DNA of 33,064 nucleotides from a virus. Positions 28,952 through 32,961 of the stretch are shown piece by piece. The notes below the pieces were generated by a model that saw nothing but the letters and a program-made list of their open reading frames with translations, did not search any database and was not told where the DNA came from. Made by a program: the position numbers and the translations under genes. The stretch covers positions 1-33,064 of the IMG/VR virus record IMGVR_UViG_3300033388_002208. The stretch is one strand, 5' to 3'. Every line of letters starts with the position of its first letter. Positions within the stretch are counted from its first letter, which is position 1.

Positions 28952-29218
28952 TTAACTATTATTTGATGTTACGTGATAAACAAACACGAAACGACCACCA
29001 ACAACCTTGAAGTGCCTCTGTAATGACTCTCTGTTTTCAGAGAAGCAGCGACCACCCAAGCACACCCCTATTTTTTTTAACTCCTTTAGCTCATTATCAC
29101 TTACTTTTACCTCATAAGTCCCTACATCATACTCGTTACCCATAATACCAGTGGCAATAAATCTTATTATGTAGTGTCGCTTCTTATATTGAAATAGCCA
29201 TTTAATGAATTTATCCAT
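28952..29218 (-). CDS. Unknown basic protein (88 aa)
   Basis: An 88-residue basic protein with aromatic residues and two cysteines (GVCLGGRCFSENRES). The start (FIKWLFQYKKRHYIIRF) is hydrophobic-basic and the end beta-like (HFKVVGGRFVFVYHV). A consensus-like GGAGG stands 8 nt before the ATG, a strong site. It is the last gene of the leftward early operon and converges on the HTH operon. No family recognised. Confidence 0.6.
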   Translation of the reverse strand: MDKFIKWLFQYKKRHYIIRFIATGIMGNEYDVGTYEVKVSDNELKELKKIGVCLGGRCFSENRESLQRHFKVVGGRFVFVYHVTSNNS

Positions 29219-29239
29219 TACTCTATCCTCCGTTAAAAT

Positions 29240-29416
29240 TTAATTTAAATCTTTAATCATTGCGCCGAGTGTTGCTATTTCTCTTTTCATCAATTCTTGC
29301 TCATCAACTAATTTTTTCATTGCCCACTTGTTTTTTTGGCACTCGTACTTTGGCTTATCTTGCTCTTTTGTTAGTTTATCCCTGATGCGGTTAACGACTT
29401 CTTTTTTTACATTCAT
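29240..29416 (-). CDS. Small basic helical protein, unknown (58 aa)
   Basis: A 58-residue Lys-rich helical protein (NVKKEVVNRIRDKLTKEQDK, then KKLVDEQELMKREIATLGAM). I place the start at the ATG at 29416, with GGAG about 9 nt upstream; eight earlier codons are open but lack a ribosome-binding site. It lies just downstream of a promoter at 29471-29499 and of the large non-coding tract. No family recognised. Confidence 0.6.
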   Translation of the reverse strand: MNVKKEVVNRIRDKLTKEQDKPKYECQKNKWAMKKLVDEQELMKREIATLGAMIKDLN

Positions 29417-29470
29417 TGTATTTACTCCATAAGGTGACATTTAAGTACGTTGGTTGGTAAGCCAAGGAAC

Positions 29471-29499
29471 CTAATATTTAATTTATAATAACTGGTCAA
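29471..29499 (-). promoter_or_regulatory. Promoter-like sequence before the gene at 29416
   Basis: On the minus strand TTGACC (29499-29494), 17 bp and TATTAG (29476-29471) resemble a sigma-70 promoter, about 55 bp upstream of the start codon. It could fire the two small leftward genes independently of the promoter at 30068-30095. Confidence 0.45.
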
Positions 29500-29751
29500 A
29501 TATAAATAACTTTATCGAGCAAAGTTTAAAGTCTTATCAGGACTGGTAACATTAATGAGCTTATTGTTTTGTTAATGCAGCTTCAACATCTGCTTATCTC
29601 TATAATGATCTTACCAACACATACTCGTTTATCCACCACTACCCATAGTTACTTAGGGGTTAGGCTACCGTACTTGTCCAATCCTGATTCACATCGTTAT
29701 TGCGCCGCATCCTTACGACTAGTAGGTTATTTATATCGGCAGTGTGGTTAA

Positions 29752-29834
29752 TCTGTATTGTGAAGTGAGCTAAACCGATTGATGGTTATCGCGAATTAAC
29801 CAATCGCATGAATAGCTCACTTCACTAATACAGA
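29752..29834. repeat. 83-bp near-perfect hairpin (21-bp arms)
   Basis: Left arm 29752-29772 and right arm 29813-29834 are reverse complements over 21 bases with a single one-base bulge (T29826). Inside them CGATTG (29776-29781) pairs CAATCG (29801-29806) and GTTA (29785-29788) pairs TAAC (29797-29800) around the loop. No target-site duplication is seen. It may be a structured RNA arm, a cruciform origin element or a small mobile relic. Confidence 0.9.
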
Positions 29835-29912
29835 CTATAAGAAGCTTTGAAAGGGGTGTGCCTGCAAGTGTTATATAGCTCGTTTTAACTTGCTTGTTTT
29901 ACCTACAGACAC

Positions 29913-29938
29913 AAAAAAAGGCTAGTTGTATAAAGCCC
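29913..29938 (-). terminator. Terminator-like hairpin at the end of the structured RNA
   Basis: On the minus strand GGGCT (29938-29934) and AGCCT (29923-29919) form a 5-bp stem, including one G-U, with a 10-nt loop, followed by a run of seven T ending at 29913. Weak alone, but it competes with an alternative upstream pairing. Confidence 0.5.
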
Positions 29939-30061
29939 TAAAACATTTCAGGATGGAATCAAAACGGTGAGAGTTTTTAAACCCTATGCGCTTTAAGACC
30001 TTATACAAATAACCTTTAATGTTTTGATTCCGTTTCACAGCCTCTCACAACTGCGGTTTAC
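29913..30061 (-). ncRNA. Putative structured RNA or attenuator leader (about 150 nt)
   Basis: Bounded by a strong minus-strand promoter (30068-30095) and a terminator-like hairpin with seven T at 29919-29913. It contains complementary segments that cannot all form together. An 11-bp pair is 30021-30031 with 29955-29965. A 7-bp pair is 30042-30048 with 29967-29973. An 8-bp pair is 30001-30008 with 29926-29933, extended by CCTTT/AAAGG (30013-30017 with 29917-29921). An alternative 8-bp pair is 30018-30025 with 29940-29947. The 29926-29933 pair lies in the loop of the terminator hairpin and its extension uses the terminator stem, giving a terminator/antiterminator switch. The pairs are visible in the sequence; RNA function is inferred. 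Confidence 0.6.
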
Positions 30062-30067
30062 AATTAC

Positions 30068-30095
30068 ATTATACTTTATTTATTTTTGTTTTCAA
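30068..30095 (-). promoter_or_regulatory. Strong sigma-70 promoter upstream of the structured RNA
   Basis: On the minus strand TTGAAA (30095-30090), a 16-bp spacer and a perfect TATAAT (30073-30068). Predicted start near 30061. No gene lies immediately downstream for 640 bp, which is why an RNA or long leader is the best reading. It begins eight bases past the stop of the gene at 30104-30382. Confidence 0.75.
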
Positions 30096-32337: not shown

Positions 32338-32358
32338 GGAATATAACAAATGAATGTA
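32328..32358 (+). repeat. 31-bp direct repeat, left copy
   Basis: This 31-bp stretch covers the last codons and stop of the P-like gene, the ribosome-binding site AAGGAATA and the first three codons (MNV) of the next gene. It is identical to 32952-32982, 624 bp (208 codons) away. The bases just outside both copies differ. Confidence 0.95.
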
Positions 32359-32961
32359 AAGCCTATTTCAAGAGGTGATTGTGAGCCATTTATTATAGGT
32401 ATTCATTACGCTCATAGATGGCCATCAATTAGTTATCGTTTCGGCTTATTTGATGATAAAGAGTTAATTGGTGTTATTACCTATGGAACGCCAGCAAGCG
32501 CACCATTAAAAAGAGGTGTCGCTGGTGATGAGTACAAAGGTGATGTATTGGAATTAAATAGACTCTGCTTGCTATATAACCGAAAAAATGAAGCTAGCAT
32601 GTTGATTGCTGCGTCACTAAAAAAACTCCCAAAAGGGAAAATAATAATATCTTATGCTGATATATCTCAAGGTCATAACGGATGCGTTTACCGTGCATCT
32701 AATTTTACATATCACGGACTAAGCGCAAAAAGAACTGATTGGAAAGTCAAAGGCAAGGAGCATCTTCACGGGCAAACGATAGCCGATGAGTTTAGAGGCG
32801 TTAAAAACAGAGCGCAAGCCATGAGGGATAAATACGGTGATGATTTTTATTTAAAGCCAAGACCTAGAAAGCACAGGTATATATTTGTAACTGGTAGCAA
32901 GACGCAAAAAAAGAAGATTAAACGGGCGATTAAATATAAACAAGAAACATTTAACAAATAA
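32350..32961 (+). CDS. Mom-like GNAT-fold DNA-modification protein
   Basis: A 203-residue protein similar in style to phage Mu Mom and its relatives: HYAHRWPSISYRFGLFDDKELIGVITYG, VLELNRLCLLYNRKNEASMLIAASLK, a central ISYADISQGHNGCVYRASNF, and a C-terminus with NRAQAMRDKYG and KPRPRKHRYIF. Mom proteins belong to the GNAT acyltransferase fold and change adenines in phage DNA so that restriction enzymes fail. The HY, D-x-x-Q-GH-G and NR motifs are the ones I rely on. The next gene is a C5-cytosine methyltransferase, so the two may form a modification module. The gene is framed by 31-bp direct repeats that include both its start and the next start. Confidence 0.7.
   Translation: MNVKPISRGDCEPFIIGIHYAHRWPSISYRFGLFDDKELIGVITYGTPASAPLKRGVAGDEYKGDVLELNRLCLLYNRKNEASMLIAASLKKLPKGKIIISYADISQGHNGCVYRASNFTYHGLSAKRTDWKVKGKEHLHGQTIADEFRGVKNRAQAMRDKYGDDFYLKPRPRKHRYIFVTGSKTQKKKIKRAIKYKQETFNK

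Follow-up and report, generated by a model that had tools for sequence, protein, structure and literature searches.

A structured phage RNA, probably of about 600 nt, with crossing helices, conserved competing pairings and, in many members, tRNAs or remains of tRNAs

The giant ornate RNAs of phages fall, to our knowledge, into only a few classes, whose function has yet to be explained. GOLLD RNA is phage-borne and longer than 500 nt, has a variable 5' region, a conserved 3' region and pseudoknots, may carry tRNAs in its variable linkers or nearby, and assembles as a 14-mer cage (PMC12286853). The ROOL RNA env-120 is 659 nt long (PMC12286853). Large and abundant ncRNAs of unknown function have also been reported from phage ICP1, which infects Vibrio (about 800 nt, PMC7567579), and from phage K (lncRNAs, PMC9241854).

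The window analysed here, the whole of a 33-kb virus record, contains genes including those for a head-tail adaptor, a terminase, RecT and a Mom-like protein. The last of these, a DNA modification protein at 32350-32961 (phrog_1384, E 1.6e-52), adjoins two genes of the helicase-loader/replication type. An earlier note had described positions 29913-30095 as a promoter-driven structured RNA with crossing helices and competing pairings. Our analysis supports this description of a noncoding RNA with well-supported structure, and the region is probably the 5' domain of a structured phage RNA of about 600 nt, running from about 30061 to 29441, both ends being estimates from promoter position and conservation. 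The RNA is common to many phages of marine bacteria, and tRNAs or remains of tRNAs often lie within its middle.

In being phage-borne, longer than 500 nt, variable at the 5' and conserved at the 3' side, pseudoknotted and built on a plan that includes tRNAs, the RNA resembles GOLLD (Rfam RF02032), and here too a tRNA is sometimes found inside the linker. The order of the elements differs, however. Neither the window nor any of nine phage records matched the GOLLD model, conserved 3' region included, at E<=10, and in the Colwellia genome discussed below its scores were only 9-11 bits (cut-off 150), as expected by chance. Further searches likewise produced no GOLLD match at E<=1. With ROOL (RF03087) the RNA shares a similar length, an ornate fold and a location in phages near tRNAs; the ROOL model had no match in 11 records, a negative result weakened by control genomes being equally silent. 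The ICP1 ncRNA is likewise a large ncRNA carried by a Vibrio phage, and the ICP1 intergenic region 80097-81107 gave no 5'-domain match to R2, the covariance model which we built for this domain. The phage K lncRNAs are comparable as large phage ncRNAs by description alone. In agreement with the earlier note, which recognised no known family, an Rfam search gave no match at the gathering score. Relaxed matches to microRNAs were due to chance, as was a weak full-length covariance match to RAGATH-6 (RF02686; 23.9 bits against a cut-off of 170, E 0.2-0.8), which aligned through the promoter and was not repeated in the homologue L045. Literature searches of partial coverage did not find a description of this RNA. 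By analogy, it may act like GOLLD or ROOL without being a member of either family.

Promoter and crossing helices of the 5' domain

The near-consensus promoter proposed on the minus strand is present, with 11 of 12 consensus matches (Table 1), and the homologues likewise have a TATAAT-like -10 element approximately 10-15 nt ahead of P1. For the minus strand the folding energy was -47.1 kcal/mol, with a z-score of -4.6, and none of 200 shuffles folded as well, whereas the z-score of the plus strand against shuffles was only -1.2.

Table 1 Features of the RNA and its promoter in the window
Feature	Position	Strand	Basis
Sigma70-type promoter, TTGAAA (30090-30095), 16 nt, TATAAT (30068-30073)	30068..30095	-	sequence and homologues
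P1 hairpin GCAG/CTGT, 5' end of the RNA; loop bears helix c (30042-30048)	30037..30054	-	covariation
Helix c, 30042-30048 with 29967-29973, 7 bp	29967..30048	-	covariation
Helix b, 30021-30031 with 29955-29965, 11 bp (pair of the earlier note)	29955..30031	-	covariation, shuffles
Competing helix d, 30018-30025 with 29940-29947, 8 bp	29940..30025	-	covariation, exact pair
Helix a, 29990-30017 with 29917-29944, long, ends at U tract	29917..30017	-	folding, covariation
U7 tract	29913..29919	-	6-7 U in 21/21 aligned members
Stem directly 3' of U7, 29901-29912 with 29858-29869, 12 bp	29858..29912	-	covariation
Conserved single-stranded linker CCCCTTTCAAAGC	29844..29856	-	conservation
Second insert, 10-bp outer and 13-bp inner stem, D-arm-like hairpin (29788-29809)	29750..29836	-	folding, comparison
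3' domain (about 29441-29736), covarying helices X and Y	29454..29736	-	covariation
Helix X, 29726-29736 with 29500-29510	29500..29736	-	covariation
Helix Y, 29610-29617 with 29454-29461	29454..29617	-	covariation

From 5' to 3' the domain consists of the P1 hairpin (its loop forming one strand of c), b, d, a, c', b', d', a' and U7. The exact pairs of 11, 8 and 7 bp were located where the earlier note had placed them and in the crossing order it gave, and mutually crossing exact stems of at least 11, 8 and 7 bp occurred in none of 2000 dinucleotide shuffles. The pair described as 8 bp plus 5 bp does contain the exact 8 bp, but these are merely part of a helix of about 24-28 bp with G-U pairs. 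For this reason the complementarity between the supposed terminator loop and 30001-30008, which is present, is simply that of the long helix a.

Compensatory changes in relatives, on which the earlier note had staked its reading, are abundant among the 21 aligned members. P1 shows a double change from AU to GC, and helix c occurs as GTGAGAG/CTCTCAC, GTGGAAG/CTTCCAC, GTGAGAAG/CTTCTCAC and TTTAGTAG/CTACTAAA. When helices were segmented by hand, helix b was paired in 126 of 126 cells, compared to 62 % with partners swapped between sequences, and over the helices c, b and a the values were 96-100 % compared to 62-89 % with swapped partners; P1 behaved likewise. As the segmentation was done with pairing in mind and so favours it, the control with a plain MAFFT alignment, made from the sequences alone, is important: the double changes in the structure of P1, c, b and a exceeded those of 500 out of 500 shuffles and of slid versions. 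No support was obtained for a helix between the P1/J1 strand and the CCTTTCAAAGC linker (5.7 bp within the same sequence and 5.6 bp across sequences).

A second 5' architecture has the order c b a b' c' a'. There c is a loop-loop kiss, for example TTTGGCGA/TCGCCAAA, TTTAGTAG/CTACTAAA or TTGGTAG/CTACCAA, in comparison windows that, like those of the 3' domain, were chosen by eye.

A conserved overlap between helices b, d and a

A fourth pair had been described as competing with the 11-bp helix. This pair, helix d, is an exact 8-bp match whose overlap is conserved and covarying. Read 5' to 3' on the RNA, positions 30021-30025 both terminate b and begin d, and positions 29940-29944, with which d' closes, also belong to the top of helix a. 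The overlapping segment reads AAAC, AGTA, AGAT or GAAC in different members, AAAAC in the window and AGAAC in L061. Its 4-5 nt vary in concert with the partner in b', the partner in d'/a' and the second copy at the top of helix a. Length varies in step as well, the window and L061 having coordinated 5-nt versions. In the hand segmentation all four combinations were 98-100 % paired compared to 71-74 % with swapped partners, and pairing with the d' overlap was 100 % compared to 72 %. The 2-3 further pairs belonging to d itself (types AT, TA, CG and TG) were 98 % paired compared to 91 %, a small margin.

These coordinated changes indicate that the overlap is not accidental and that it represents a conserved, predicted four-strand exchange element in which competing pairing is maintained. 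As such it is a clear natural case of alternative pairing kept by evolution. With joins of 0-3 nt, d and a complete helix a cannot, judging from the geometry, be present at once. Helix d would thus be either an intermediate in refolding or an alternative conformation. The calculated stabilities in the window differ greatly (a -30.5, b -13.0 and d -3.9 kcal/mol), so d is expected to be transient unless something holds it.

U tract, linker cargo and 3' domain

The supposed terminator, at 29913-29938, had been taken in the earlier note for the 3' end of the RNA. It is not the end of the conserved element, whose structure continues for approximately 500 nt beyond the U tract, and an RNA end at this point is unsupported. 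The local 4-bp terminator stem GGCT/AGCC is retained by a single subtype and has been lost from phage H105/1. The U7 tract itself may be a regulated terminator. In nearly all members a GTGTCTG-like sequence follows directly after U6-7 and has its partner 30-130 nt further on, before AA-CCCCTTTCAAAGC. Most members have 7-12 bp in the resulting stem, which shows covariation (on average 8.0 bp within sequences, 5.7 across sequences and 4.7 in shuffled ones), and in tRNA-bearing members its place is that of the tRNA acceptor stem.

This continuity bears on whether the 5' domain is instead a stand-alone small RNA of about 150 nt which ends at U7, the downstream stems and the 3' domain belonging to a separate or rarely read-through transcript. 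A promoter at the 5' side, together with a strong helix and U6-7 at the 3' side in all 21 members, gives the domain a terminator-like look that speaks against a single long RNA, and swaps of the 5' core leave the remainder unaffected. Nevertheless, the next covarying stem begins at the first base past the U tract, and members read over their whole length contain the 5' domain together with the 3' domain; we consider such a small RNA unlikely, and as the whole story it was rejected because a stem and domains come after U7.

The linker carries tRNAs in some members. In L049 a tRNA-Arg begins 2-4 nt past U7 and is followed by a tRNA-Met, and in the Vibrio breoganii phage 1.116.O (L125) a tRNA-Trp starts at the U tract, with a tRNA-Arg in addition. 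In other members the linker holds tRNA-like modules that possess the acceptor, the D-arm and the T-arm and are aberrant in the middle; those of L115, L054, L118, L060 and L052 reach the tRNA cut-off in spite of a long, aberrant middle, and L054, L052, L060 and L115 have such modules at the site of the second insert. The window has stems and a D-like hairpin only (29750-29836). A T-loop motif was enriched 48-fold in the 700 nt past the U tract compared to the rest of the loci, a count that takes in both real tRNAs of L049. In Vibrio phage 242E40-1 (L118:3134-3236) the tRNA-like linker module is annotated as 'tRNA-Und', and further phages in GenBank may carry the same misannotation. L004:2900-3180 (minus strand) contains two tandem inserts with the same type of outer stem (AGTCTGT...ACAGATT), one with the T-loop motif, which suggests that each linker module behaves as a unit when it is gained or duplicated.

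The position of these tRNAs would also suit a leader whose 5' domain governs tRNA release, either by termination and anti-termination through d and a or by processing, and d does compete with the top of a. Yet in many members the site holds nothing more than degenerate modules or plain stems, Vibrio phage 1.148.O (L129) has kept both domains without any tRNA, and the local terminator stem is not conserved, which makes a tRNA leader quite unlikely.

The 3' domain contains the interleaved helices X and Y (order X-Y-X'-Y'), a second pseudoknot. In the larger group of sequences, group 2, X had 11.1 bp within the same sequence compared to 6.7 bp across sequences and Y 8.3 compared to 5.6 bp, with changes such as CATGG/CCATG to CAAGG/CCTTG. 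The four sequences of the window's own group also have X and Y, with a modest difference between same-sequence and cross-sequence pairing. A 311-nt query from L062 matched the 3' domain in 74 phage records and a query from phage phiV208 in 33, the overlap between the two sets not being counted; the matching sites are mostly unannotated or assigned to a short hypothetical protein.

Probably, then, the region is the 5' domain of an approximately 600-nt phage RNA with tRNA cargo in its linker and a pseudoknotted 3' domain, functioning as a particle or scaffold similar to GOLLD and ROOL; of the roles considered, this is by analogy the most likely one. Transcription would proceed from 30061 to about 29441 as one RNA, in which the P1 loop and the strand following it would pair into the loop region of the long hairpin (helices c, b and a). 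The four-segment repeat could allow strand exchanges between b, d and a during transcription, i.e. co-transcriptional refolding with a possible role in timing. The transcript would read through the U tract into a linker of tRNAs, tRNA-like modules or plain stems and continue into the 3' domain, and an RNA-only assembled particle or scaffold may carry or display the linker cargo during infection. Against this explanation, tRNA processing at the linker would part the 5' and 3' domains. It is also conceivable, though unlikely, that the RNA represents a new class of phage RNA particle in which swappable 5' heads provide every phage with an assembly specificity of its own, tRNAs are the built-in cargo and the exchange element drives or times assembly during transcription; if so, branch migration of the Holliday type would take place in the element, inside a single RNA molecule.

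The small genes at 28952-29416 had been suggested as targets of an attenuator or riboswitch. A ribosome-binding site and start codon (GGAG 29425-29428, ATG 29416) do follow approximately 25 nt after the element. However, the genes past the element differ between phages (phosphatase, methyltransferase, HNH and unknown genes), which disfavours such control, about 500 nt of conserved structure separate the supposed terminator from the gene, and the 88-aa protein has no relatives in viral contigs. The last conserved RNA bases precede the ribosome-binding sites of unrelated genes, so no particular gene appears to be the target, and we regard this explanation as highly improbable.

Homologues and exchange of the 5' domain

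Homologues were found by blastn against phage loci fetched via the neighbouring replication gene (L014, 72 % identity; L027, 81 %), with DNA patterns in IMG/VR (L045, L046, L052, L054, L055, L057, L060, L061 and L062, and further L113, L112, L114, L115 and L117) and in the named phages Vibrio phiV208, Vibrio NF and Pseudoalteromonas H105/1, in all three of which the site is unannotated. The R2 model matched rearranged versions in Vibrio phages 242E40-1 and 1.116.O, Pseudoalteromonas phage HS2, L004 and a second Colwellia copy. Beyond known members, the pattern GGTTATNTNTNTNAGGNCTTA gave chance matches only, and a search of plasmids with L065 gave no match. No conserved partner protein was found, the upstream replication gene being present in only 8 of 16 loci.

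The single true match in a scan of cellular genomes was a Colwellia contig. Since only one of 395 genomes of the order of Colwellia matched, the one already known, the element appears to be phage-borne. This 38.5-kb contig (L122 and G001:C100) carries the RNA twice, 15 kb apart and with differing 5' architectures, and is probably phage DNA binned with the MAG.

Between phiV208 and NF identity is approximately 90-100 % around the 5' core and 55-65 % inside it, and the Vibrio phages 1.116.O and 1.148.O have 3' domains that are 96 % identical and 5' domains that differ, tRNAs being present in the former and absent from the latter. The 5' domain is thus swapped as a cassette. Such natural swaps and sister pairs with and without tRNAs are ready-made experiments. 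GenBank phages of culturable Vibrio and Pseudoalteromonas, the Nahant V. breoganii phages among them, carry the RNA without annotation, and genetics and RNA-seq of infections are therefore feasible at once. One or more further 5' architectures, with a long helix and a U tract and a different inner part, are attached to the same 3' domain in L126, L128 and L129.

Matches to Sulfurimonas in the genome scan were rejected as homologues, as they belong to a different terminator-like element. This short intergenic element of Sulfurimonas and relatives ends in GGCTAGGGCTTCGGTCTTAGCC and U8-9 (L083, L086, L087, L093, L094, L099, L100, L101, L104, L106, L108 and L109), often has a TATACTTCT-like -10 element approximately 60-70 nt upstream and occurs more than once per genome; it is possibly a small RNA family of Sulfurimonas.
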